Below, in pieces: positions 12,444 through 31,733 of a DNA stretch of 32,399 bases. The position numbers and the translations under genes are program-made. The stretch covers positions 1 to 32,399 of the IMG/VR virus record IMGVR_UViG_3300029319_000256; one strand, 5' to 3'. This stretch comes from a virus. Below the pieces are notes generated by a model. The model did no database searches and was not told where the DNA came from. It was given only the letters and a program-made list of their open reading frames with translations. Each line of letters starts with the position of its first letter. Positions within the stretch are counted from its first letter, which is position 1.

Positions 12444-15400
12444 ATGCCAGAGTTAAAAAGAAGTTTTAGTAAAGGTCAAATGAATAAAGACCTTGATGAA
12501 AGACTAATTCAAGACGGTACATATAGAGATGCTTTAAACATAGAAGTTTCTACCTCAGAAGGTTCTAACGTTGGAGCTATAGAAACTTTAAAGGGTAACA
12601 CCGCTTTAACAACAGCGGTAGAATCAGGAAGTACTTGTGTAGGTTCTATAGCTGACGAGCAAAACGATAAAATATATTGGTTAGTAGCTGGAAGCTCAAG
12701 TGGTGTTAGTAGTGGAACTGGTGATACCGCTGTAACTGTTTTTAGAGATTATATATTAGAACACGACGTGTCTAACGCTACTACTAAATACGTTTTTGTT
12801 GACGTGTATAAATCTACAGCTGTAACAACAGCTTCAGTTTCTAACGCTACAACAATACCTGTTGGAGACGCTACTTATATAAGAAGAGGTATGCAAGTAT
12901 CAGGAGTGGCAGGTATGAACTTGGTCACGGTTACGGCTGTAAGTGGTTTAAACATAACTGTTTCAGAAAGTGTTACTATACCGGACGCATCTGCTGTTGT
13001 TTTTGAAACACCAACAACTAACGATAATGACCCTGGAAAACCAGGTGGAAGAACTTTAAACTACGATGAATTTAGAATAATAACAGGACTAAACGTAGTA
13101 GATGGTATGTTAATTTGGACAGATAATCACTCTGAGCCTAAAAAAATAAACATACAAAGAAGTTTGTTAGGTACTGGTTTAAATGATTTAACACTGGCTG
13201 ATGGTGGTTCTTCTACATATCATACTAGATTAGTAATTACAGATGAACAAGATGAAAACATAATAGTTACAGATACTGGTAGCTATCCTGTTTATATGGA
13301 AGAGCAATATATCACAGTTATAAAAAGAGCTCCTTTATTAGCACCTTTCTTATCAATGTCTGATACTTTAGAAGCTAGAGGAGAAACATTAGGTGTAACA
13401 ACTACACAAACTAGATTTTACGTTTCTAATGTTATATTAGAATCTGGAGACTCTGCAACAATATCGCTGGGTAGTATATTAGGAACTGGTTTACCAGACT
13501 ATAGGGAGGGAGATATAATACTATTAAGTAACGCTGGTAGCTCTAGTTTTACGGAGCATCAAGTTAGAGCACAGATAGACGTAGGTGGAACACCTTCACA
13601 AAACGGAACTCAAAACGATTATAATATAACTATATTATCTATAAGCCAAGATGTTCCAGATGCTGATGAAACTTGGAACTCTGTTTTAGAATTAACACCT
13701 CCTTTGTTTGAGAAAAAGTTTGTTAGATTTGCTAGTAGATTTAAGTACGAAGATGGAGAGTATTCTGCGTTTTCACCTTTTAGTGAAGTAGCTTTTTTAC
13801 CAGGTAACTTTGAATATTACGCTAGTGAAGGATATAACCTAGGTATGTCTAATAATTTACGTAGTTTAAAAATACAAGATTTTGTTCCTGAAAAATCTAT
13901 ATTACCTCAAGACGTAGTTGCTGTAGATATACTATATAAAGAAGATGGATCTCCAAACGTTTATACCGTAAGAACTGTAGAAAGAAACAGTACTGAATGG
14001 ACAGCTGCTGGTTCTGGTAATGGTTTAAATAATGGCGAACTGTTAATAGAGTCAGACGTTATACACGCTGTGCTTCCATCCAATCAATTATTAAGACCTT
14101 TCGATGAGGTACCTAGAAAAGCCTTAGCACAAGACATAACAGGTGGTAGAATAGTTTATGGTAACTATTTACACAAATACAAAATGGATGGCTTTGCTTT
14201 TAAAGACAAAAATATAAACGTTAACTTAAACGCTGCTTTAGATTTTACAAGCATTACTACCGTTGGTACTCCTGAAAAAAGTTTAAAATCTTTAAGAAAT
14301 TATCAAATAGGTATTGTATATAGAGATATATACGGTAGAGAAACACCAGTCTTTACATCTGAAAACACCTCTACACAAAGTAGTGTGTTACAAATAGATA
14401 AGCCACAATGCGTGACTTCAAACAAAATACATGTAGACATAAATAGCGTTGCGCCTAAGTTTGCTGATTCGTTTAAGTTTTTTGTAAAAGAAACTTCTAA
14501 TGAGTATTACAACTTAGCTATGGACAGATGGTACAACGCTGAAGACGGTAATATATGGTTAAGCTTTCCTTCTTCTGAAAGAAATAAAGTAGACGAAGAA
14601 ACATTTTTAATACTTAAAAAAGAACATGATGGCTCCGCTGCTGTAACAGAAAATTATAAATATAAAATATTATCTATAGTAGGTGAAGCACCTACGTTTG
14701 TAAAAACTATATCTAGGTTTGTGGCCACCTTAACTAACACTTCCGTAGGTAATGTTTCAGACGGTTTGTTTGGACAAATAGTAGGTAACACTATATTAGA
14801 AGGTTATCCTCTGCCAAACTTAGATTCTTTTATGATAGACACAGCTACATATCAAAACTCTGCGTTAGCAGATGCTTTTGAGGCTAAACAAACTTTCGTA
14901 AGATTTAGATCCGCTACAGCAGCCTCTAACTATTATAAAATATTAAATGTTACTACTGGTGACGCTAGTTCTGGTACAGCAACTAAACTTACTATAGAGG
15001 GTAGATTTGGTTCTGATTTAGATTTTACTTCTACTTCAGGTAGTGTTTCTACTAGAATATCTGGTTTGATAGCTGATTTTAAAACAGAAAGTGTAGAAGA
15101 TAAACCAGAGTTTGAAGGTAGGTTTTTTGCTAAGATATATAAGGATTTAGGTGTAAGACAGTACATAACAAAAGAAACATCAGAAGAAGTAGATAACTTA
15201 ATAGTATCAAAAGCCCTACCAGTTAGATGGGTTAAAACCGACGGTGTAGATATGAACAACGCTTTATCTGATGATACCTCTGCTATTAACTCGCCTACAC
15301 ATCAATTTTCAAGCCCACTTAGTTTTACAGAGTGGGGTGCTGTTGATATTAAAGGTGGTGCTTCTTCAGCTTGGCATAACGTTTCTAGTGGTGACTTTGA

Positions 15401-17807
15401 TAATGATGGTGATCTTGGAGGTTTTGGTTTAGATCCAGATCAAATTGGTAGTAACGCTTACGGAAGTCAAGGGGCTGAATATTGGAGAGATTTTGCTAGA
15501 GTTTACGGTGGTGCTACTAGCGGTAGTGGAGACAACAACCACTTTTTTATAGACGAAGCTTTTTATAGACAAGAGTTAGATACTGATGGAACCGGTATAA
15601 GTGGAACGAAAGCTGGACGTGGAGAAGGTATAAGGCCTAACACTAACCCTTCTGTAAATATAACTATTGACCAAGATTTGATAGATATATCATGGGCTAA
15701 CATACATCCTAAAGGAGACACAGCCGCTTTTTCTTCCGCAGAATATCCTATAGCTTATGATTTTATTTACGATCTTTATAGAGCTGGTACTAGGTTTAGA
15801 TTTAGAGACGATCCAGACCAAATAGTTTACACAGTAGAGTCTTTAGAAGGTCACACGCAAAGAATACAAAACTATCGTGTATTTTCTTCATCTAATCAAA
15901 ACGACGCGGAAAATAAGAGAGAGACTTGGACTATGTCAGTTTCGCCTAGGTTTGGTAACGGTCCTACTGGTTACCACCCATTAAAACCAAATACACATTT
16001 TGAGGTTTCAAGTGGTAATGGTTTAGGTCAGATAGCAGTTGATCGTTTTCATAATAATGTAGGTTCTACAGCTGGTACAGCAACTGGTACTGCTAGAGCG
16101 GGTTCTAGAATGCAGCCTCACGGTAACTCACCTGGTCATGTTATAGAGATATTACAAACCGTAACGTCTACAAATTCACCAGATGATTCGTTTACAGATA
16201 ACCCTGGTTTATGGGAAACAGAGCCTAAAGAAGATGTAGGTTTAGATATATACTACGAAGTAGGTAGAACATACCCTGTAAGTTTTGATTTTAGAACTAA
16301 CGAGCAATTAATACCTGTTGGTTCTACAGTTAGCTTGGTTTCTGGTACAGCAACTGGTTTAACAACACAAACAGTTACAGCTTGTAATGACAATACAGTT
16401 ACTCTTAGTTCTGCTATAACAAACTCTTCTGGTGGTGGTGATAGACTAAAGTTTACTTTTCCAAAAGAATATGATACAGATTTACCAGGTTCTATTATTA
16501 TGTCAGTAGATCAAAATTCTGCAACAGCGGGTAGTTCTAATGCTGTGGTAACATTGTCTTCAAACGTACATGATAACGCTGAGTTTATATTGCCTTATTT
16601 CAATTGTTATAACTTTGGTAATGGTAACGAATCTAATAGAATAAGAGATGATTTTAATGCTCCAACTATAGACAAAGGTGTTAAGGTTTCTACAGTAACA
16701 ACAGAACCTTATACAGAAGAAAGAAGAGCTAGTAGTTTAATTTTTAGTGGTGTATATAACTCTAGAAACGGTATAAATAACTTAAATCAATTTGTAGGTT
16801 CTGATGGTATAACAAAAGACTTAAATCCAAAATACGGTTCTATACAAAAATTACACTCTAGAGACGGTGACGTTGTAACGTTTATGGAAGATAAAATATT
16901 TAAAGTACAGGCTAATAAGGATTCTTTATTTAATGTTGACGGTGGAACTAATTTAATATCTACGAGTAAAGTATTAGGTTTTCCAACACCAGTAAAAGGA
17001 GAGTATGGTATATCTAAAAATCCAGAATCTTTTGCTTTCCAAGGCTACCAAGCATATTTTACAGATAAGTCAAGAGGAGCAGTCTTACGTATGTCTATGG
17101 ATGGATTAACTGTTATATCGAATGTAGGTATGAAAGATTATTTTTCTGATACATTTAAAACAACTAATACTAGTATCATAGGTACTTATGACGATAAGAA
17201 AAGTCAATACAATTTAACTTTTTCAAATAATACAACTGTTAGTTGGAACGAAGGCACTAAGGCTTGGGTTAGCTTTAAATCTTTTTTACCAGAATCAGGT
17301 GTTAGTTTTAACAATACTTATTACACTTTCTTTGATGGAGAGCTTTATGAACATCATAGCAACGAAACAAGAAATAATTTTTATGGCACGCAGTACACTT
17401 CTGATTTTACTTTGATAATGAATGATATGCCTGGTAGTGTAAAGAATTTTAAAACTTTAAACTACGAAGGAACACAAGCTAAAGTTACTCAGTTTCAAAC
17501 TTCAGTAGTTGATAGCGTAGCTGATGATTTAGACGGCACATACAACGATGGAGAGTATTATAATTTAAACGCTAAAACAGGTTGGTTCGTAGAGAGTATA
17601 ACTACAGATATGCAAGAAGGTTTAATTAGCGAGTTTAAAGAAAAAGAAAAAAAGTGGTTTAACTACATTAGAGGAGCAGCAACAACATTAAGTAACCTTG
17701 ATACTTCAGAGTTCTCTGTTCAAGGATTAGGAAAGGCGTCTGCTATTAGTAGATCAGACACAGAGAGAACAGTATTTAAATTAACAGTAAAAGAAAATAA
17801 CGATTAA
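12444..17807 (+). CDS. Large tail hub / DNA stabilisation-type protein
   Basis: A 1787-aa protein beginning MPELKRSFSKGQMNKDLDER LIQDGTYRDALNIEVSTSEGSN, an N-terminal signature I associate with podovirus stabilisation or tail-hub proteins (P22 gp10-like, beta-propeller fold). The C-terminal third has propeller-like repeats: KIFKVQANKDSLF, SFAFQGYQAYFTDKSRGAVL, ISNVGMKDYF, SIIGTYDDKKSQYNLTF. The middle of more than 900 residues carries inserted beta modules, including two copies of the small shared module (138-187 and 1290-1337) and an Asp-rich loop DFDNDGDLG from D984. Its size is several times that of ordinary gp10 proteins, so part of it may form the tail nozzle or fibre attachment. No catalytic motif was identified. 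Confidence 0.65.
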   Translation: MPELKRSFSKGQMNKDLDERLIQDGTYRDALNIEVSTSEGSNVGAIETLKGNTALTTAVESGSTCVGSIADEQNDKIYWLVAGSSSGVSSGTGDTAVTVFRDYILEHDVSNATTKYVFVDVYKSTAVTTASVSNATTIPVGDATYIRRGMQVSGVAGMNLVTVTAVSGLNITVSESVTIPDASAVVFETPTTNDNDPGKPGGRTLNYDEFRIITGLNVVDGMLIWTDNHSEPKKINIQRSLLGTGLNDLTLADGGSSTYHTRLVITDEQDENIIVTDTGSYPVYMEEQYITVIKRAPLLAPFLSMSDTLEARGETLGVTTTQTRFYVSNVILESGDSATISLGSILGTGLPDYREGDIILLSNAGSSSFTEHQVRAQIDVGGTPSQNGTQNDYNITILSISQDVPDADETWNSVLELTPPLFEKKFVRFASRFKYEDGEYSAFSPFSEVAFLPGNFEYYASEGYNLGMSNNLRSLKIQDFVPEKSILPQDVVAVDILYKEDGSPNVYTVRTVERNSTEWTAAGSGNGLNNGELLIESDVIHAVLPSNQLLRPFDEVPRKALAQDITGGRIVYGNYLHKYKMDGFAFKDKNINVNLNAALDFTSITTVGTPEKSLKSLRNYQIGIVYRDIYGRETPVFTSENTSTQSSVLQIDKPQCVTSNKIHVDINSVAPKFADSFKFFVKETSNEYYNLAMDRWYNAEDGNIWLSFPSSERNKVDEETFLILKKEHDGSAAVTENYKYKILSIVGEAPTFVKTISRFVATLTNTSVGNVSDGLFGQIVGNTILEGYPLPNLDSFMIDTATYQNSALADAFEAKQTFVRFRSATAASNYYKILNVTTGDASSGTATKLTIEGRFGSDLDFTSTSGSVSTRISGLIADFKTESVEDKPEFEGRFFAKIYKDLGVRQYITKETSEEVDNLIVSKALPVRWVKTDGVDMNNALSDDTSAINSPTHQFSSPLSFTEWGAVDIKGGASSAWHNVSSGDFDNDGDLGGFGLDPDQIGSNAYGSQGAEYWRDFARVYGGATSGSGDNNHFFIDEAFYRQELDTDGTGISGTKAGRGEGIRPNTNPSVNITIDQDLIDISWANIHPKGDTAAFSSAEYPIAYDFIYDLYRAGTRFRFRDDPDQIVYTVESLEGHTQRIQNYRVFSSSNQNDAENKRETWTMSVSPRFGNGPTGYHPLKPNTHFEVSSGNGLGQIAVDRFHNNVGSTAGTATGTARAGSRMQPHGNSPGHVIEILQTVTSTNSPDDSFTDNPGLWETEPKEDVGLDIYYEVGRTYPVSFDFRTNEQLIPVGSTVSLVSGTATGLTTQTVTACNDNTVTLSSAITNSSGGGDRLKFTFPKEYDTDLPGSIIMSVDQNSATAGSSNAVVTLSSNVHDNAEFILPYFNCYNFGNGNESNRIRDDFNAPTIDKGVKVSTVTTEPYTEERRASSLIFSGVYNSRNGINNLNQFVGSDGITKDLNPKYGSIQKLHSRDGDVVTFMEDKIFKVQANKDSLFNVDGGTNLISTSKVLGFPTPVKGEYGISKNPESFAFQGYQAYFTDKSRGAVLRMSMDGLTVISNVGMKDYFSDTFKTTNTSIIGTYDDKKSQYNLTFSNNTTVSWNEGTKAWVSFKSFLPESGVSFNNTYYTFFDGELYEHHSNETRNNFYGTQYTSDFTLIMNDMPGSVKNFKTLNYEGTQAKVTQFQTSVVDSVADDLDGTYNDGEYYNLNAKTGWFVESITTDMQEGLISEFKEKEKKWFNYIRGAATTLSNLDTSEFSVQGLGKASAISRSDTERTVFKLTVKENND

Positions 17808-19866: not shown

Positions 19867-20748
19867 ATGTACAAGCAAAAAGGATCAACATTTTACAACG
19901 ATTTAAAAGCACCATTTAAAGCAAAGGGTGGCGTAAGTCCAATGAAGAGTTTAGGCCAAGGTATTGGACAAATCATAGGGGCTTATGGCGCTAAGAAAAG
20001 AGCTAAAAGCGAATTGGTTGGAGCGAAAGCAGAAGAAGAGCAAGCAAGACAAGCTTATATGGATATGGATTTTTCTAATCCTTATGCTAACATGGAGAAC
20101 ACTGCGGAGGACTTAACTGTTAATCAACAGGCAGCTAATTTAGCTAAACAACAGTTTCAACAATCGCAAGCTAACATTTTAGGCTCAATGCAACAGACTG
20201 GTGGAGGTTTTAATGCTGGTAATATACAAGCTCTAGTTGGAGCTGGTCAACAAGCAGCAGCGGCTACAGCGGCAGACATAGGAAAACAAGAACAAGCTAA
20301 TCAACAAGCAGCGGCACGGCAAGCAGCTCAAAACCAAGCTGCTGCAAGAAAAGGAGCGGCACAAGCTCAAGAAGCAAAAAGAGGTCAAACAGAAACGTTG
20401 TTTGGTATGGCTACGCAAAGATTAGGAGCGGCGGAAGCAGCAGATGCAGAAGCTAGAGCTGCTATGAGTGAGGGTATAGGTAACGTTGTAGGTGGAACGG
20501 TAGATATAGCAGCTAAAGCAGCTATGTCAGATGTTAGATTAAAAGAAAACATTAAGCACACTGGATATTCTAAGTCTGGAATACCTATGTATGAGTTTAA
20601 ATACAAGGGATGTGATACAGTTTGGTCAGGTGCAATGGCTCAAGATTTAATTAATTTAGGTAGACATGACGCTGTTGAATTGATGGACAATGGTTACTAT
20701 GCTGTTGACTACAATGCAATAGATGTTAACATGCTACTTTGTAAATAA
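19867..20748 (+). CDS. T7 gp14-like internal protein with S74 chaperone domain
   Basis: A 293-aa protein. Residues 25-215 are Gln/Ala-rich helix (NQQAANLAKQQFQQSQANIL, GNIQALVGAGQQAAAATAAD) with a GGGFNAGN break, the composition of T7 gp14-like ejection proteins. From S221 the sequence is SDVRLKENIKHTGYSKSGIP then MYEFKYKG, GAMAQDLINLGRHDAVEL and YYAVDYNAIDV. This is a short S74 intramolecular chaperone/auto-peptidase domain. S221 and K226 have the Ser-x4-Lys spacing of the known catalytic dyad of endosialidase-type S74 domains, so cleavage would release a 73-aa piece. The neighbours are two further ejection-type genes. The ejection role is inferred; the S74 signature is seen directly. Confidence 0.7.
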   Translation: MYKQKGSTFYNDLKAPFKAKGGVSPMKSLGQGIGQIIGAYGAKKRAKSELVGAKAEEEQARQAYMDMDFSNPYANMENTAEDLTVNQQAANLAKQQFQQSQANILGSMQQTGGGFNAGNIQALVGAGQQAAAATAADIGKQEQANQQAAARQAAQNQAAARKGAAQAQEAKRGQTETLFGMATQRLGAAEAADAEARAAMSEGIGNVVGGTVDIAAKAAMSDVRLKENIKHTGYSKSGIPMYEFKYKGCDTVWSGAMAQDLINLGRHDAVELMDNGYYAVDYNAIDVNMLLCK

Positions 20749-22346: not shown

Positions 22347-25300
22347 ATGAATAAAGAGCAGTTAAAAAAAGTTGTTAAAAAAATGATGGCAGCAGGCGAA
22401 CCTGATGCTAAGATAAAGCGTTTTATTAAAAGCTCTGCTTTTAAACAACGTGTAGACGGAATTAGTGGGGCAGATGTGTCTCCAACATATTCTAGCGAAA
22501 GAGATAACTTTGCTGCTAATGAAGAATATAATTACTACGAACAAAAAGAAAAAGAAAGAGATGCGATACGAGAAAATTATCCACAAACTTTAGGTAATGT
22601 TATTACTTTTGGCGTAGGTAGTAGTGAAATGGTTGGTAGTATATACAAAAAAGCAAAAGATGTTGTTGGGTCTAAAAGTGTTAGTGGTGCAATGACTTCA
22701 TTGAAAAAAGACAATGAATATCTTGACAGAAAAAGAAACCAAGATACCTTTAAACTTGTTAACAAGCTTGACGATGGAGAAATTACTCAAGAGCAATATG
22801 ACTTAGAGATAGAAAAAATAAATTATATTTACGACAATGCTACTGGACCTAGAGATCATTATCATTGGTTACAAAAAGCAAACAATTTATTTAATACAGA
22901 AATAAGTGATGAAACAAAAAAAGTTAGAGATGATGCGTTAAACGCAAGCGATAAAGAATATAAGCAGAAAAATAAAGAATCGTTTGCCTCTGCCGATACT
23001 AATAAAGATGGAGACATAGATGAACAAGAGCAGTTTTATTATAACGCTAGAGAAGAAGCTACAGTTTTTCTTAATGAAGGTATAGATAGTTATTTAAAAA
23101 GAGATATTGATGCTGAGATCGAGGCTGAATCTAAAAAACGATTAATGGATCCAACGGGTTATCTTGAAACTAGAAAACCACTATATGAAACGGATGCTAC
23201 TTCTACTTATATAGATCCAATGTATAGTGATGAAGAAGATTATGAAGAAGAGGAATATGAAGAGGAAGAGCCTATAATAAATATTGACAGTAATAGTATT
23301 TCTCCAGTTTTAACTCAGCTGTTAATACAAAAATATGCTGGTGAAAACGGAGTAAGCATGAAAGACGCTTACAACACTTATGTAGAAGCGGGTGAAGAAG
23401 ATTACGAAGGAGAAGATCCTTTTGCAAGTGTTAGGCATCTTATGACTGACACAAGTGGTAACTCACCTTCTGGAGATGGAGCTCTTATAGATTATTTAAA
23501 CGATATAAAATTAAATGATCCTGAATTTTTTAAACGTTTTAATGAGGCTTATATATCTTCTTCTTCAGACAATTATGCTAGACAAGAGATGTCACAGAAA
23601 CTTGGTATTGAATTAACTGAGAAGGCTGGATTTTTTCTTGGAGAGGGTACAACGACTTTATTTGGAGATCCAGATGAAGTAAAAGATACCGAGAAAAAAA
23701 TTAGAGAGTTTGAAAGAGATCAAGAAAAAGCAGAGGCAGAAACTAGTGAAATAAATGAAATGCTTGAATCTTCTATTGAAACTACAAACAGTTTGCTTGA
23801 AGATTTAGAAAACACAACAGAAGGTACTGTCACTGTTAATGGTAAGGTGTTAGAAGACGAAAATGGAAACGAAATTATGTTTCCTAACAACGCGAGAATA
23901 CAAAACCTTTTAGACGAAAACGAAAAAATATTAAAAGGTAAATACAAAACTCAAGAAGAGGTTGACGAGGCCAATAAAAAAATAAATGAAAACAATGCTG
24001 AGGTTGATAATATATTATCTAGTTATAAAAACAAAGTAGAAAACTACAATACCAGTAGAGAAACTTCTTTAAAGTTATCTAACACATTAAGAAAAAATAC
24101 AGAAGAACAGCTTTCTGCTGCAAGAAACTGGAATGATTATAAAGCCATATATGAAATGCAGGATCAAAGGTACACTACTTTTGGACAATTTGGTGCCGCA
24201 ACTACAGGATCGGTTTTAAATTTAGTTTCTGCTGCTGACGAAATTATTGTTGGCGGTAACCATGACATACTACAGGCTGCTGGTATCGTAGAGGGTCCTT
24301 ATGATCCATGGGTTGGTAGACAGTGGGTAGACCAATACAGAGATAAGTTTAGAAACATGGCTGATCCTGGCACTAATTATTATAGTTACAAAACAGGTGA
24401 TTTTAATAGTTTCGCGTTTGAACGTAGTAATAGGACAATGAGAATGATAGGTGACATGGTACCTATGTTAGCAGCTACATATCTTAGTGGAGGTTCTGCT
24501 ACACCTACGCTTATGGGTATGACAATACCAACTGTGGCCGTAATAGGTACACAATCAATAGGCGGTGATTTAGAAAGAACTAGATTAGAAATGAAAAATA
24601 ATCCACTTGTTCATTACGCTGGATGGCAAAGATATACCTCTGCTATTGTACATGGAGCTACAGAAATACTTTCAGAAAGATTACTTGTTGGTCAAGTAGG
24701 TAGAGTAGCTGATAATTTAATGGTAGATGATTTTGCTAAAGAAGGTGTAAAGTCTTGGGTAAGAAGTACTTTAAACTTAGGTACTAGAGGGGTATTGGAT
24801 GCTGTTCAAGAGGGTTTTGGTGAAGGTGTAAACACTTACACTCAAAACTTAAGTGATAAGTGGTTGCTAGGTAAAGACGTAGATTTAATGGACGGTGTAA
24901 GCGAATCTTTTATAGATGGTTTTTTAGTTTCCGGTGCTATAACTACACCAATGTTACTTAAAAACACTACTAATCACTTAATACCTAATACGTTACAAAA
25001 CAAATTAAATGATAATACCACGGAGTTATTACAGTTAGAAAAAGAACTTTTAGATAATAGATATAAATATAACGAAGATGGTAGTGTAAAACAAAATGTA
25101 AAGTCAACTTTAAGCTCAGAAAGGATAGCGCAAATAGAATCTAGAATGAACGAGCTTGTAAATGAAAACACAGATCTTTTTGAAACTCAACTCAAAGGAA
25201 GTGTTGGCATGACTCAGGCAGAAAAGAGAGAGCTGTTAAACATTAGAACTCAACAACATAGGTTAAAATCAGAAGCAAACACTATAAACAAAGAAACTGG

Positions 25301-28300
25301 TTATACTAAAAAAGAAAAGAAAGAAAAACTAGATGAAATAAAATATAGATACAGTAAGTTAGAAAAGCAAAAAAATGATATATTACAATCTGACAAACGT
25401 ACTGATGAGGAAAAAATAGCTGATTACGAAAAATACAAACTAAGTGTAAAAAATAAAATAGATAGTTATAGAAATAGAAAAGACCGAGAAAGAGATGTAG
25501 AGAGTATAGAATTTGAAACCACAGAAGCGGTTGAGGAATATATGAACGAGCAAAATCTTTATGAAGACGCTTATATTCAAGCTGAAGTTGATGCTGCAAA
25601 ACGCCAGTTGCAACAAAACAAAGATTTTCGTAGCAGTGATACACAGACTAGACAGCACTCTGAACTTTCTCCAGAAAGAAGAGCTCAGTTAGAAAATATA
25701 GTAAGACAAGGAGAATCTATATTAGAAAATAATTTAAAACAATCTAAAGAAGGTGCTGGACAATTTGGTTTTATACACACAAAACAAAATGGTGATTTAG
25801 TATTTGGTATTAACAAACAGAGTAGTTTATCTGCAACAGGTAGGGTAACAACCGCTGCTCATGAATTTTTACACAGTGTTTTATTTAAAACAATAGGTGG
25901 TGATACTAAAATACAAAACGCGTTAGGAAACGCTCTGCAAGAATATGTAGGTGATAAAAAAGGTGTTACTGGTATGGAAACATTTCGTCAAAGAATGGAG
26001 CCGTATATATATAGAGGAAAACAAGGAGAAGTACTAGGTGTAGAACAAAACTATTCAGAAGAACTTATAACTATCATGTCTGAGTCTATATTAGATGGTA
26101 GTTTAAAATTTAACGAAGGGTTTTTTACTAAAGTAGGAGATGGATTAAGAAGATTTTTTCAAAGAAGATTTCCTAATACTTTAGGTAAAATAAAGTTTGA
26201 TAGTGGTAGAGATGTATATAATTTTATAAAAGACTATAATGACAGTATAGAAAAAAATTATACTAACAAAGCTATTGAAGATGTAATGGTCAGAGGTGCC
26301 GATGGTAAACTAATACCAGGTGTTGATCCTTTGTTAAAGCAAAAGTCTGGTTACACTTACTCAAGAGCCAACCAGTTAGATATGATGCTTAACAAGTATG
26401 GCGATAAAATTAGTTTAGTACAAAATGCTATAGCACAAAATGAAAATGGTGATTTAGTTGAAGACCTACAACAGTCTGAGCTAGGCCAAGGTATGGGTGG
26501 TATAATAGAGAGTATAACTAAAAGACTTTATGATGGTATACCTAAATCAGAGGTAAACAAAATAGATCTTACTAGAAAAGATTACAAAGACGCTTTGTTA
26601 ACCGAAGCTGTAGAAATGATAACCAAAGAGTACGATCCTGCTAAACAAAAACTTGATAAATTTGTGAGTAGTAGATTAAACCTTAGAGCAAACGATCTAG
26701 CGCAAAGACTAGGTGTTCCACAAGAGTTTACTACAGAACTAGGTGCTGCTAAAGACGTAACAACAGCAGAAGATAAAGTGCAGCAAGAAACTATTGATAC
26801 TAAAAAACTAGAAGACAGATTAACTAAAGTAGACCCTGAACTTAAAAAAGAACTAGCTGTTATAAAAAATAATATTATAAAACAAATAGAAGCTAACCCT
26901 AATTTATACAAAGATAAAAACTACAAGTCTTTAAAAAATTTAGTTAGCAATGAAGTTCAAAGAATGTTTGGTATAGCCCCTAAAGTAGGTAACTTAACTA
27001 AGGGTGATGTTAGAAACGCTCAAATGTTTATTAATAAACATGCTGATGCTTTGGTCGCTATGCTTCCTCAAGGCTTTACTTCAGATCAAACTTCTACTGG
27101 TGTACAAAATGTTTTATTAAAAGAATTTTATAACAAACGTTCTGTAAGAGCTAAGACAGGACCAGGTTTACAAGTACAAGTTAAAAAACCTAATTTAAAC
27201 GTTAACGATTTTACTAGCGTGTTTGGTATAACAGAAAGAGGTAAACCTAATCTTTATAAAAAAGAAAGTAACACTAGCGCTAGAATAAAAGCTTTAGTTG
27301 AGCAAACAGGTAAGACTATAACTAACCAAACTATTAGAGAACACTTACAAGAAACTAATCAACCTGTAGATTTAATAGCAAGACTAGGAGACGGTAAAAG
27401 TAAATTCATGTTTTCAAAAGGTAAGGCTTTAAACGAAATGTTACAGAAAGACGGTGCTAAAGCTGCTGGTGTAATAGAAAGTTTATTTGATCTTACTAAC
27501 AACGATATACATTATTACGGTGGTAACATGACTGCTTTAGCTAATAATCAGTTGGCTGGGTTGTTGCCTCAAAACGAAATAAATAAAATAGCTAAAGACT
27601 TACAATCTTTATACGATTTAACAGTACCTAGTTATTTAGAAAGCTCTAACTTGTTTACGTCACCTACGCCACTAGGTTCGTTTGTAATAGATAAATATTT
27701 ACAATTAAACATTGAAGGTAGAGAGGGTTATGCTAGCTTGTTGAGTTTAACTGGTGAAAACTTTGTAGCGTTAAAAGGAAATAAAACAGCTCAAGAGTCG
27801 GCTAGAGCATCTATTAAATCTCTAGCTACTGAATTAGATAGAATACATGGTAAGGGTTTTGCGTTAAGAACTTTATATAGAACTATATCTGCTCCTTCAA
27901 AAATACAAGATGGAGAGTTTATACCTGTTGAACCTGGCGGTAATAAATTAAAGAAAAATCCTAATTGGAACCCAAGAAAAAAAGATGGAAAGCCTCAAGA
28001 CAATAGGTTAGGTTTAGCTACAAATGCAGTAGATGCTGCGTTATTGTTAGGGGCAGAGTTAGACGCCAATGGAAAACCTATAGGTTTACCAGAGTCTCCA
28101 AAAGGCACTAGTGATTACATGAAGGGTAGTTTAAATAGAATACCAGAAGCAAGTAAAAGACCTGGGTTTATAGAACGTCAACAACAAAATAACCAAGACA
28201 TAAGAAAAGTTATGGATGTTGTTAGAGATCTTTATCAAAATAAATTTATAAATGGTAACCAGGTTGTTTCTTTAATGGCAAACTTTAATGCTAACCAAGA

Positions 28301-31300
28301 AGGTATTACGAGAGCCTCTGCTATACTAGATTTTATTCCTGTAGATGATATAAACTACTCAAACAATAAGTTAAGGTTAGAGCACATGACACCTGCTTTA
28401 ACTACAAATTTATATGCTTTAAAATATATATTTGCAGATAAGACAACTTCTGAAGCAGCTAGAAAAGATTACAACGATATTATGGATAATTATCGTTTAG
28501 CTTATTTACCTGATGTTTATGATAAAATGGTAAACAAGTTTTACAAATCAACAATGCCTTTTTATTGGACTCCTGACGCTAGTGCTTTGTTAAGGTACTA
28601 TAATGCTGAGATGGCTGGTACTTTTGATTTACAAATGGAACAGTTGTCTACAGGAATAATTGTAGGACCAGAGTTAGCTACAGATAAAAAATTAATCAAG
28701 CAAGTTGAGAAAGGAAAACTAAATGCTATTAGCAAGTTATTAAACACTACTTTAACACAAGCCGCTTTAGATAAAGCAGGTATAGATTTAAATGAAGGTG
28801 CTAGAACAGCTGGGAAAGTATTTATGAATTCTAGAGCTATTAATGAGTCTACACCAAGTAGAGGTATGTCTGCTTTTGATTTTGACGAGACGTTAATTGA
28901 CAAAGGTGATAATACTATTATAGCTACCAAAGGTGACGATGTAGTAACTATAACATCTGGACAGTGGCCTTTACAAGGTCCTAAATATGCTGAGTTAGGT
29001 TATGAGTTTGATTTCAGTGACTTTATAAATGTTAGAGGTGGTGTTGAGGGCCCTCTAATGCAGAAGTTTAGAAACAGAATACAAAAGTATGGTATAGAAA
29101 ATAACTATATACTTACAGCTAGACCAGCAGAAGCAGCACCAGCAATTAAGGCTTGGTTAAAAACCCAAGGTATAGACATGCCTATAGAAAATATAACTGG
29201 TTTAGGTAATAGTACTGGTGAAGCAAAAGCTATGTGGATAGCTAATAAATTTGCAGAGGGTTACAACGATATATATTTTGTGGACGATGCCTTACCTAAT
29301 GTTGAAGCTGTTGCAGATATGATAGATCAGTTAGACATTAAAGGTAAGTCTGTTCAAGCTAAATTTAAGTTTAGTAGACAACTTAATCCAGAGATAAACA
29401 AAATAATAGAATCTACTAGACAGCAAAGTTTAGATTTGAATAGAATAATAGAGCAAACAAAAGGTGTTAAAGCAGAAGCTAGATATTCTGATGCTCAAGC
29501 TAGAATAAGAGGTAGCCAAAAAGATAGGTTTAGTATGTTTAAATTCTTTGTACCGCCTTCTGCAGAAGACTTTAAAGGTTTACTATATAGATTACTTTCA
29601 CCTGGTAAGTTAGGAGAACAACAAATGGCGTTTTTTAAGAAAGCACTATTTGATCCTTTTGCAAAAGGGTACACTTCTTTAAATAAAGCTAAACAAAACT
29701 TAGACGCTGGTTATAGAAATATATTAAAAGTTTTTCCTAGTGTAAAAAAATCTTTATCACAAACAGTCGAGGATACTAATTTTACTAATGATCAAGCTGT
29801 AAGAGTTTATTTATGGGATAAAAACAATGTAGAGGTACCCGGTTTATCTAAAAGAGATCAACAAACTTTAGTTAATCACGTTAAGAGTAATACTGATTTA
29901 TTATCTTTTGCCCAATCATTAGAAGGTTTGGTTAACTTAGATACTGGTTATCTAATACCTAATGAATATTGGTTAGTTGAAAGTACTAGCAGTGATATAC
30001 AAACTATAAACGCAGAGCTTAGTAGAGCAGACCACTTGTCAGAGTTTGTAAACAATAGAAAAGAAATGTTTGGTGAGTGGAAAGGACAAAGTTTAGATGG
30101 TGACATCATGAATAAACTTCAAGCAATATACGGTAATAATTATAGAGACGCTTTAGAAGATATACTTTGGCGTATGGAGTTTGGAACAAAGAGGGAAAAA
30201 GGAACTAATAAATTAGTAAATAAATTTAACAATTGGGCTAACCAATCAGTTGGTGCTATAATGTTCTTTAATATGAGATCTGCGTTGTTACAGACTATAT
30301 CTTCTGTTAACTTTATAAACTGGTCTGACAATAATCCGTTAAAAGCAGCGGCTGCATTTGCTAACCAAAAACAATTCTGGAAAGACTTCGGTATGATATT
30401 TAATTCTGACATGTTAAAGCAAAGGCGTGCTGGTAACCAAAGAGGTATCAATGAAGCTGAACTTGCTCAAGCAATTGCTGGTTCTAAAAACAAAGCTAAA
30501 GCAGCTTTAAACTGGTTGTTAACAAAAGGATTTTTACCTACACAAATAGCAGATAGTTTTGCTATTGCTTCTGGTGGCGCTACGTTTTATAGAAACAGAG
30601 TTAAATCATATTTAAAACAAGGATTAACACAACAGCAAGCAGAGTCACAAGCTTTTCAAGATTTCCAAGAAGTAACAGAGGAATCACAGCAGTCTTCAAG
30701 ACCTGATTTAATATCACAACAACAAGCTTCGCCACTAGGTAGATATATACTGGCTTTTAAAAACACACCTATGCAGTATGCTAGACTTATGAAAAAAGCC
30801 GTGTTAGATTTAGCTAACAATAGAGGTGATTTTAAAACTAACGTTAGTAAGATTATATATTATGGTATGGTTCAAAACTTAATATTTAACGGACTACAAG
30901 CTGCGTTAGGCGCTTTGATAGGTGATGACGACGAAGACAAAGACACTGAAACAAACAAAAGGATTATCAACGGTATGATTGATTCTGTTCTTGGTGGATT
31001 AGGATTTGGTGGTAATGTTATTATGACTGTAAAAAACTCTTTATTAGAATACTTAAAACAAAGAGAAAGAGGTTGGAACGCAGATCATACTTATACTATT
31101 TTGAAAATAATAGGTTTGTCTCCTACAATAGGTAGTAAACTAAGAAAAATATATTCAGGTATACAAACAGAAAAATTTAATAGCGAAGTAATAAATGAAA
31201 TGAGTTACTTTGACATTGACAACCCTGTTTACGAGGCTATAGCTAATGTTATATCTGGTGGTACTAATATACCTTTAGACAGACTTGTTAAAAAAGTAAA

Positions 31301-31733
31301 CAATGTTGATGCTGCTCTTACAGAAGAAATATCTACTATAGAAAGACTTGCCTTGTTAATGGGTTGGAATACTTGGGACTTAGGTATTGAAGACCAAGAT
31401 ATAATAGCTGTTGAAGAAGAAATAAAAGAAAGAAAAGACAAAGAGAGAAAAGAGAAAAACGAAAAGAAAAAAATAGAAAAGAAACAGCAACAACAAAAAG
31501 AAAACGAAGTAAAAGAAAAAGAAAATAAAGAAAAAGATGATGGTCGTTGTATAGCTATAACTAGTAGCGGTAGCAGATGTAAAAGAGAGGCTATATCAGA
31601 TGGTTATTGTACTGTGCACGCTAAAGTAGAGCAAGGAACTAAAGAGGTTCAGTGTAGTAAAATTAAATCTAATGGCGAAAGATGTAAGATGAAAACTATG
31701 GCTAAAAGTGGATTATGTTTTTATCATGATTAA
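22347..31733 (+). CDS. Giant polyvalent internal virion / DNA ejection protein
   Basis: A single uninterrupted 3128-aa frame. Visible parts in order: EF-hand loop DTNKDGDIDEQE (217-228); acidic tract (295-308); coiled coil (about 450-590); hydrophobic stretch from M700 (MIGDMVPMLAATYLSGGSAT), a likely membrane insert; long charged helices (960-1110); HEFLH zincin centre (1172-1176) with E1238/E1239 as candidate third ligand; a segment near 1425-1455 faintly like sigma region 2; HAD centre with D2178/D2180, T2257, K2294, D2313/D2314; a conserved helical block (about 2625-2870) with MFFNMRSALLQTISSVNFIN and ILAFKNTPMQYARLMKKA; Lys/Glu/Gln linker (3022-3065); two Cys3His motifs (3068-3091, 3103-3127). 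It sits in the gp16 slot of an ejection cassette. A polyvalent protein injected with DNA is the inference; individual activities are untested. Confidence 0.75.
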   Translation: MNKEQLKKVVKKMMAAGEPDAKIKRFIKSSAFKQRVDGISGADVSPTYSSERDNFAANEEYNYYEQKEKERDAIRENYPQTLGNVITFGVGSSEMVGSIYKKAKDVVGSKSVSGAMTSLKKDNEYLDRKRNQDTFKLVNKLDDGEITQEQYDLEIEKINYIYDNATGPRDHYHWLQKANNLFNTEISDETKKVRDDALNASDKEYKQKNKESFASADTNKDGDIDEQEQFYYNAREEATVFLNEGIDSYLKRDIDAEIEAESKKRLMDPTGYLETRKPLYETDATSTYIDPMYSDEEDYEEEEYEEEEPIINIDSNSISPVLTQLLIQKYAGENGVSMKDAYNTYVEAGEEDYEGEDPFASVRHLMTDTSGNSPSGDGALIDYLNDIKLNDPEFFKRFNEAYISSSSDNYARQEMSQKLGIELTEKAGFFLGEGTTTLFGDPDEVKDTEKKIREFERDQEKAEAETSEINEMLESSIETTNSLLEDLENTTEGTVTVNGKVLEDENGNEIMFPNNARIQNLLDENEKILKGKYKTQEEVDEANKKINENNAEVDNILSSYKNKVENYNTSRETSLKLSNTLRKNTEEQLSAARNWNDYKAIYEMQDQRYTTFGQFGAATTGSVLNLVSAADEIIVGGNHDILQAAGIVEGPYDPWVGRQWVDQYRDKFRNMADPGTNYYSYKTGDFNSFAFERSNRTMRMIGDMVPMLAATYLSGGSATPTLMGMTIPTVAVIGTQSIGGDLERTRLEMKNNPLVHYAGWQRYTSAIVHGATEILSERLLVGQVGRVADNLMVDDFAKEGVKSWVRSTLNLGTRGVLDAVQEGFGEGVNTYTQNLSDKWLLGKDVDLMDGVSESFIDGFLVSGAITTPMLLKNTTNHLIPNTLQNKLNDNTTELLQLEKELLDNRYKYNEDGSVKQNVKSTLSSERIAQIESRMNELVNENTDLFETQLKGSVGMTQAEKRELLNIRTQQHRLKSEANTINKETGYTKKEKKEKLDEIKYRYSKLEKQKNDILQSDKRTDEEKIADYEKYKLSVKNKIDSYRNRKDRERDVESIEFETTEAVEEYMNEQNLYEDAYIQAEVDAAKRQLQQNKDFRSSDTQTRQHSELSPERRAQLENIVRQGESILENNLKQSKEGAGQFGFIHTKQNGDLVFGINKQSSLSATGRVTTAAHEFLHSVLFKTIGGDTKIQNALGNALQEYVGDKKGVTGMETFRQRMEPYIYRGKQGEVLGVEQNYSEELITIMSESILDGSLKFNEGFFTKVGDGLRRFFQRRFPNTLGKIKFDSGRDVYNFIKDYNDSIEKNYTNKAIEDVMVRGADGKLIPGVDPLLKQKSGYTYSRANQLDMMLNKYGDKISLVQNAIAQNENGDLVEDLQQSELGQGMGGIIESITKRLYDGIPKSEVNKIDLTRKDYKDALLTEAVEMITKEYDPAKQKLDKFVSSRLNLRANDLAQRLGVPQEFTTELGAAKDVTTAEDKVQQETIDTKKLEDRLTKVDPELKKELAVIKNNIIKQIEANPNLYKDKNYKSLKNLVSNEVQRMFGIAPKVGNLTKGDVRNAQMFINKHADALVAMLPQGFTSDQTSTGVQNVLLKEFYNKRSVRAKTGPGLQVQVKKPNLNVNDFTSVFGITERGKPNLYKKESNTSARIKALVEQTGKTITNQTIREHLQETNQPVDLIARLGDGKSKFMFSKGKALNEMLQKDGAKAAGVIESLFDLTNNDIHYYGGNMTALANNQLAGLLPQNEINKIAKDLQSLYDLTVPSYLESSNLFTSPTPLGSFVIDKYLQLNIEGREGYASLLSLTGENFVALKGNKTAQESARASIKSLATELDRIHGKGFALRTLYRTISAPSKIQDGEFIPVEPGGNKLKKNPNWNPRKKDGKPQDNRLGLATNAVDAALLLGAELDANGKPIGLPESPKGTSDYMKGSLNRIPEASKRPGFIERQQQNNQDIRKVMDVVRDLYQNKFINGNQVVSLMANFNANQEGITRASAILDFIPVDDINYSNNKLRLEHMTPALTTNLYALKYIFADKTTSEAARKDYNDIMDNYRLAYLPDVYDKMVNKFYKSTMPFYWTPDASALLRYYNAEMAGTFDLQMEQLSTGIIVGPELATDKKLIKQVEKGKLNAISKLLNTTLTQAALDKAGIDLNEGARTAGKVFMNSRAINESTPSRGMSAFDFDETLIDKGDNTIIATKGDDVVTITSGQWPLQGPKYAELGYEFDFSDFINVRGGVEGPLMQKFRNRIQKYGIENNYILTARPAEAAPAIKAWLKTQGIDMPIENITGLGNSTGEAKAMWIANKFAEGYNDIYFVDDALPNVEAVADMIDQLDIKGKSVQAKFKFSRQLNPEINKIIESTRQQSLDLNRIIEQTKGVKAEARYSDAQARIRGSQKDRFSMFKFFVPPSAEDFKGLLYRLLSPGKLGEQQMAFFKKALFDPFAKGYTSLNKAKQNLDAGYRNILKVFPSVKKSLSQTVEDTNFTNDQAVRVYLWDKNNVEVPGLSKRDQQTLVNHVKSNTDLLSFAQSLEGLVNLDTGYLIPNEYWLVESTSSDIQTINAELSRADHLSEFVNNRKEMFGEWKGQSLDGDIMNKLQAIYGNNYRDALEDILWRMEFGTKREKGTNKLVNKFNNWANQSVGAIMFFNMRSALLQTISSVNFINWSDNNPLKAAAAFANQKQFWKDFGMIFNSDMLKQRRAGNQRGINEAELAQAIAGSKNKAKAALNWLLTKGFLPTQIADSFAIASGGATFYRNRVKSYLKQGLTQQQAESQAFQDFQEVTEESQQSSRPDLISQQQASPLGRYILAFKNTPMQYARLMKKAVLDLANNRGDFKTNVSKIIYYGMVQNLIFNGLQAALGALIGDDDEDKDTETNKRIINGMIDSVLGGLGFGGNVIMTVKNSLLEYLKQRERGWNADHTYTILKIIGLSPTIGSKLRKIYSGIQTEKFNSEVINEMSYFDIDNPVYEAIANVISGGTNIPLDRLVKKVNNVDAALTEEISTIERLALLMGWNTWDLGIEDQDIIAVEEEIKERKDKERKEKNEKKKIEKKQQQQKENEVKEKENKEKDDGRCIAITSSGSRCKREAISDGYCTVHAKVEQGTKEVQCSKIKSNGERCKMKTMAKSGLCFYHD

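Follow-up and report, generated by a model that had tools for sequence, protein, structure and literature searches.

A single HExxH motif in a very large phage protein raises the question of whether it marks a working metallopeptidase and, if it does, whether such an enzyme would cut the polypeptide that carries it or a protein of the host. The protein is encoded in a 32,399-nucleotide stretch of viral DNA, positions 1 to 32,399 of the IMG/VR virus record IMGVR_UViG_3300029319_000256, and this whole stretch is referred to here as the window. Our main reading, to which we assign a probability of about 0.48, is that an active gluzincin-like zinc peptidase resides in an ejected virion protein and acts mainly in cis; that the domain is an active metallopeptidase, whatever its substrate, is considered very probable.

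The window and its giant protein

The gene order of the window (terminase, portal and other structural genes) resembles that of Flavobacteriia phages in Elemovirus, Pervagoviridae and Pachyviridae, the groups to which the relatives of its terminase also belong. The source would be a marine podovirus, with Bacteroidota as its probable hosts. A 1787-aa protein (12444-17807) ends in a crassvirus muzzle C-terminal domain (PF25729, E 2.3e-7), unlike the affinities of the terminase, and the C-terminus of the product of 19867-20748 faintly resembles an endosialidase chaperone (Peptidase_S74, E 0.052, below the cut-off).

Several unrelated domains are combined in the one giant polypeptide, namely the zincin, HAD-like motifs, DUF5763 and a conserved C-terminal module, as shown in Table 1. 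Module A is shared with cultured relatives, with residues 698-1013 matching elemoF gp18 (blastp, E 1e-16) and residues 685-894 matching Cellulophaga phi38:1 gp101 (blastp, E 5e-4). The HAD-like segment gave a weak PHROG match to polynucleotide kinase (E 0.026), and in 90 of 130 loci a DxDxT was found at most 350 aa before the C-terminal module, typically ~165 residues ahead of it, with a DD motif after it in 89. The C-terminal module has at least 578 relatives in IMG/VR and no clear match in Pfam, PDB or PHROG, including no meaningful sequence match among PDB chains, and on sequence similarity it is a large unannotated phage protein family. DUF5763 (E 1e-7) was detected at the extreme C-terminus of the giant protein (31548-31650), and a further Cys/His stretch, resembling a repeat of the domain, comes after it. 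Nothing recognisable as an RNA polymerase was found in the giant protein. A hydropathy scan of the same protein returned one weak candidate membrane helix, and equally many were returned for the terminase and the muzzle-like protein used as controls, so the scan is uninformative on membrane insertion.

Table 1. Coordinates of the giant protein, its parts and the residues of its HExxH centre in the window.
Feature	Position (nt)	Strand	Basis or remark
Giant multidomain protein, 3128 aa	22347-31733	+	ORF; last of the large genes in the virion-structure block
Module A, residues ~685-1013	24399-25385	+	blastp to cultured relatives elemoF gp18 and phi38:1 gp101
Zincin-like metallopeptidase domain, residues ~1050-1316	25494-26294	+	Conservation and AlphaFold model
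HEFLH, residues 1172-1176	25860-25874	+	HExxH kept in 80/80 loci and 75/75 distinct sequences
H1172	25860-25862	+	Proposed metal ligand
E1173	25863-25865	+	Proposed general base
H1176	25872-25874	+	Proposed metal ligand
Y1220	26004-26006	+	Invariant (75/75); possible active-site Tyr
E1238	26058-26060	+	Invariant (75/75)
E1239	26061-26063	+	Invariant (75/75); column ≥90% kept across 18 divergent domains
HAD-phosphatase-like segment	28872-29300	+	Motif I AFDFDETL at 2176, motif IV FVDD at 2311
Conserved C-terminal module, residues 2357-2856	29415-30914	+	Served as independent query

Conservation and predicted fold of the HExxH centre

The original prediction had located HEFLH and a downstream Glu pair in the giant protein, and its placement, sequence and spacing are exact in the ORF translation and coordinates, with 67 residues from H1172 to E1239. 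A scan of 19 genes of the window gave HEFLH as the sole HExxH, and 0.010 HExxH is expected per shuffle of the giant protein. The viral contigs were scanned with a 180-residue query and six peptide patterns, all of them without HEFLH, and 80 loci were obtained, every one of which has an HExxH at the aligned place (80/80). Together with the window these gave 81 sequences, 75 of them distinct, with identities to the window of 24-75% over ~310 residues (lowest listed value 23%). None of the 75 departs from the window at H1172, E1173, H1176, Y1220, E1238, E1239 or S1245. The conservation of residues 1291-1298 was discounted because the peptide YNFIKDYN had served as a search pattern. Loss of HEFLH in close homologues, which the original prediction had named as evidence against itself, was looked for in these loci and none was seen. 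The gluzincin-like centre that it had proposed is thus supported, with the HExxH and the downstream Glu invariant down to ~24% identity.

The window's own zincin domain has no match in Pfam; among the 75 members, 17 match Peptidase_M78 (PF06114) weakly, with a best E of 2.2e-4, and other weak zincin matches were obtained to M61 in three, SprT-like in two and DUF3267 in two. A profile of the domain searched against PDB sequences (hmmsearch) gave matches at E > 1 only, and residues 852-1551 gave nothing at E ≤ 1 in 50,697 phage records (tblastn), with one weak place found in the same annotated records for the C-terminal third. A scan of genome contigs gave two relatives, one in a Flavobacteriaceae MAG and one in an Aliivibrio MAG.

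Over residues 1041-1350 AlphaFold2 predicted the domain with confidence (mean pLDDT 82.8), with strands at local positions 101-105 and 111-116 followed by the HExxH helix (129-143), and E1238/E1239 in a helix at 196-209. Foldseek searches of this 310-residue model against PDB and BFVD returned nothing at E ≤ 0.001, the long N-terminal helices dominating the comparison as they did in a second look with VIA-align, and a model trimmed to residues 1129-1316, with a lower mean pLDDT of 74.9, again gave no significant structure match. The one zincin-related chain in the results was that of anthrax lethal factor (1pwp_A), aligned over residues 98-259, a zincin-like part of the protein, at Z 3.8 with 136 aligned residues and an rmsd of 5.5, which is below a trustworthy level. 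The order of elements in the model fits the zincin core described by Iyer et al. (PMC5512222).

These fold searches would agree with a structural zinc site or a non-peptidase HExxH fold, in which folding or some other chemistry would preserve the motif, and in the discussion of the HExxH of the N4 vRNAP C1 domain radical SAM enzymes are mentioned beside zincin metalloproteases and work on alphaKG-HExxH proteins is cited (PMC12633501). We regard such a site as unlikely, because a structural site has no need of a general base and E1173 is invariant in 75/75 sequences and in the 18 divergent domains considered below; the weak profile matches, moreover, repeatedly go to peptidase families.

The zincin slot among independently sampled relatives

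The C-terminal module (residues 2357-2856) was used as the query for a further sampling that avoids selecting on the zincin. One of the 79 loci from the first module search, L002, had been obtained before, and a second search with an alignment of 21 modules gave 80 loci among the matches listed, 65 of them new. From the resulting 143 loci (L081-L158 and L170-L234), 13 with fewer than 1000 residues upstream of the module and two duplicates were dropped, leaving 128 giant proteins. An HExxH was found upstream of the module in 126 of these 128 among the matches listed, and exactly one in 125, against 1.93 expected from shuffled upstream sequences. The distance from HExxH to the module has a median of 1184 residues, with a 5th-95th percentile range of 994-1571. 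The two exceptions both retain the C-terminal module. L120 is an apparent degenerate copy, because EELSH stands where a relative has HELAH (in an alignment of 24% identity), and in L143 the stretch that holds the zincin appears to be absent relative to L028. The excluded locus L144, which is too short, comprises two split ORFs without an HExxH.

Substantial divergence was observed in the contents of this slot. In the first module set (78 loci, of which four are too short), the window's zincin profile matches 32 loci, which carry HExxH, and fails to match 42; even so, an HExxH is present in 39 of the 42, in all cases upstream of the module. When 18 divergent domains were aligned (10-16% identity to the first sequence, with one at 32%), H, E and H alone were invariant and one Glu was kept at ≥90%; this Glu aligns with E1239 and not with E1238. 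The original prediction had named both Glu residues as the possible third ligand, and E1239 is likelier on the strength of this column. One group reads HExxHxxD, its Asp invariant in 7/7 members, and resembles a variant reported in phage polyvalent proteins by Iyer et al. (PMC5512222).

The main family was compared by hhalign with elemoF, with the HExxHxxD group and with a third group, at probabilities of 95.5, 89.7 and 92.4, respectively. Outside the main family, the top score among 48 random control segments (2.7) was exceeded by 23 of 27 HExxH-centred segments, and four were no better than the controls. With H, E and H masked, 12 of 24 segments still beat the controls; the similarity therefore rests on the motif for about half, and homology beyond the motif is supported for about half of the segments outside the main family.

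HExxH is a short motif and is common in general. Its chance occurrence in a helical protein is hardly credible here and was rejected, being refuted both by conservation (80/80 loci, 75/75 sequences and 18 divergent domains) and by the shuffle expectations (126/128 against 1.93, and 0.010 per shuffle).

Exchange of the slot contents was observed between close relatives. The window and L083 are 77% identical over the C-terminal 980 residues, with a 34% stretch at 1559-1696, and no similarity was detectable between their zincins; the last 810 residues of L012 and L097 are 91% identical and their zincins barely similar. In pair counts that take in zincin-selected loci, zincin similarity was undetectable in 64 of 153 pairs with 65-75% C-terminal identity, in 5 of 51 at 75-85% and in 1 of 44 at ≥85%. 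The window and L001 are 38% identical over the N-terminal 680 residues, 76% in the zincin and 90% in the C-terminal part.

Own chain or host target, and known systems

In the proposed mechanism, H1172, H1176 and E1239 would hold the zinc and E1173 would activate water. The giant protein would be carried in the particle and delivered together with the DNA, and the zincin would cut its own polypeptide at sites that lie in the N-terminal two thirds and are passed on along with the enzyme. While the phage enters or afterwards, this cleavage would release the C-terminal part (HAD-like segment and C-terminal module) or other portions of the chain.

The ejection role is one that we infer from gene order and from relatives annotated as structural. 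The elemoF gp18 protein stands in the same position after the terminase, portal and structural genes and is annotated 'structural protein', an annotation that several cultured or named relatives carry. It has one HExxH, as does Gundel_1 gp074, and the giant proteins phi38:1 gp101 and phi19:3 gp129 of Cellulophaga phages have none. A relative in MW202828.1 (L162, 741-12320) is a 3859-aa giant protein with two HExxH motifs that was deposited as 'reticulocyte binding/rhoptry protein', which is probably a misannotation.

Cutting of the own chain is slightly favoured over cutting of a host target. The zincin swaps together with the surrounding N-terminal sequence against a C-terminal stretch of 980 residues that remains 77% identical; the enzyme could in this way be passed on with its cut site, and predicted processing in cis has a precedent in DdrB of phage P1 (PMC5512222). 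A fixed slot with a peptidase motif, exchanged with its N-terminal neighbours, fits an enzyme acting in cis and also fits a host-directed protease in an arms race. The same active enzyme might be a trans effector that cleaves a host defence, envelope or housekeeping protein after ejection, with its sequence tracking its targets, and we hold this to be a serious possibility at clearly less than even odds. The slot contents diverge and are swapped between close relatives, as in the 64/153 pairs above; the rare natural losses (2/128) indicate that the zincin is not strictly required; and host-directed zincins are discussed by Iyer et al. (PMC5512222) and in a jumbo-phage review. Against a payload of this kind, an arms race might swap in other enzyme classes, yet HExxH is found in the slot region of 126/128 listed proteins. 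Cleavage in cis has points against it as well: L120 and L143 keep the C-terminal module without an HExxH, the two Cellulophaga giant proteins lack the motif, the searches of solved structures gave no significant match, and N4 vRNAP, which contains a zincin domain, is packaged without processing (PMC5512222), which shows that the presence of a zincin does not imply cutting of the carrier.

The retention of HExxH at about the same place despite swapped sequence suggests that protein cutting matters at the start of infection. It is quite possible, though somewhat short of an even chance, that in a large lineage of marine phages an entry protease, nearly obligatory yet interchangeable, accompanies a constant C-terminal module, with the enzyme class fixed and the specificity not. 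This would amount to a polymorphic entry-protease system, in an abundant family, whose cut site or host target changes by recombination. The natural swaps, the likely degenerate L120, the likely deletion in L143 and the cultured relatives whose hosts are named (elemoF gp18 and Gundel_1 gp074) make it testable whether injected zincins cut their carrier or the host.

A search of titles and the beginnings of abstracts in the open-access literature returned no prior description of the giant family. The Crassvirales (PMC10172136) resemble the window in being podovirus-type and in the muzzle C-terminal domain of its 1787-aa protein, and differ in that the terminase relatives of the window belong to the three other groups named above; the words 'protease' and 'zinc' are absent from the main text of that account of the cargo system. 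N4 vRNAP is an ejected virion protein of ~3500 residues, and its C1 domain, which has the HExxH, likewise precedes a large C-terminal domain that is mostly helical (PMC12633501). Unlike it, the window protein has no recognised RNA polymerase, and its C-terminal module has no meaningful PDB match. The gp18 of the cultured Flavobacterium phage elemoF (NC_055853.1) shares the gene position, module A and a homologous zincin with HEIFH at 1543, and the C-terminal module of the window has no significant match there.

Zincin-like MPTase domains were predicted in phage polyvalent proteins in 2017 (Iyer et al., PMC5512222), and the window shares with these the HExxH helix and Glu helix, a variable insert between the two, and a giant multidomain phage protein in which other enzymatic domains accompany the MPTase. 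In contrast to them, the window has one zincin at a near-fixed distance from one conserved C-terminal module, its domain has no Pfam match, and 'crAss' does not occur in the main text of that paper. By the features that could be compared, the domain would thus be a phage polyvalent zincin MPTase, a kind already known, and what appears to be new is the unannotated marine family with its near-fixed zincin slot and exchangeable contents.
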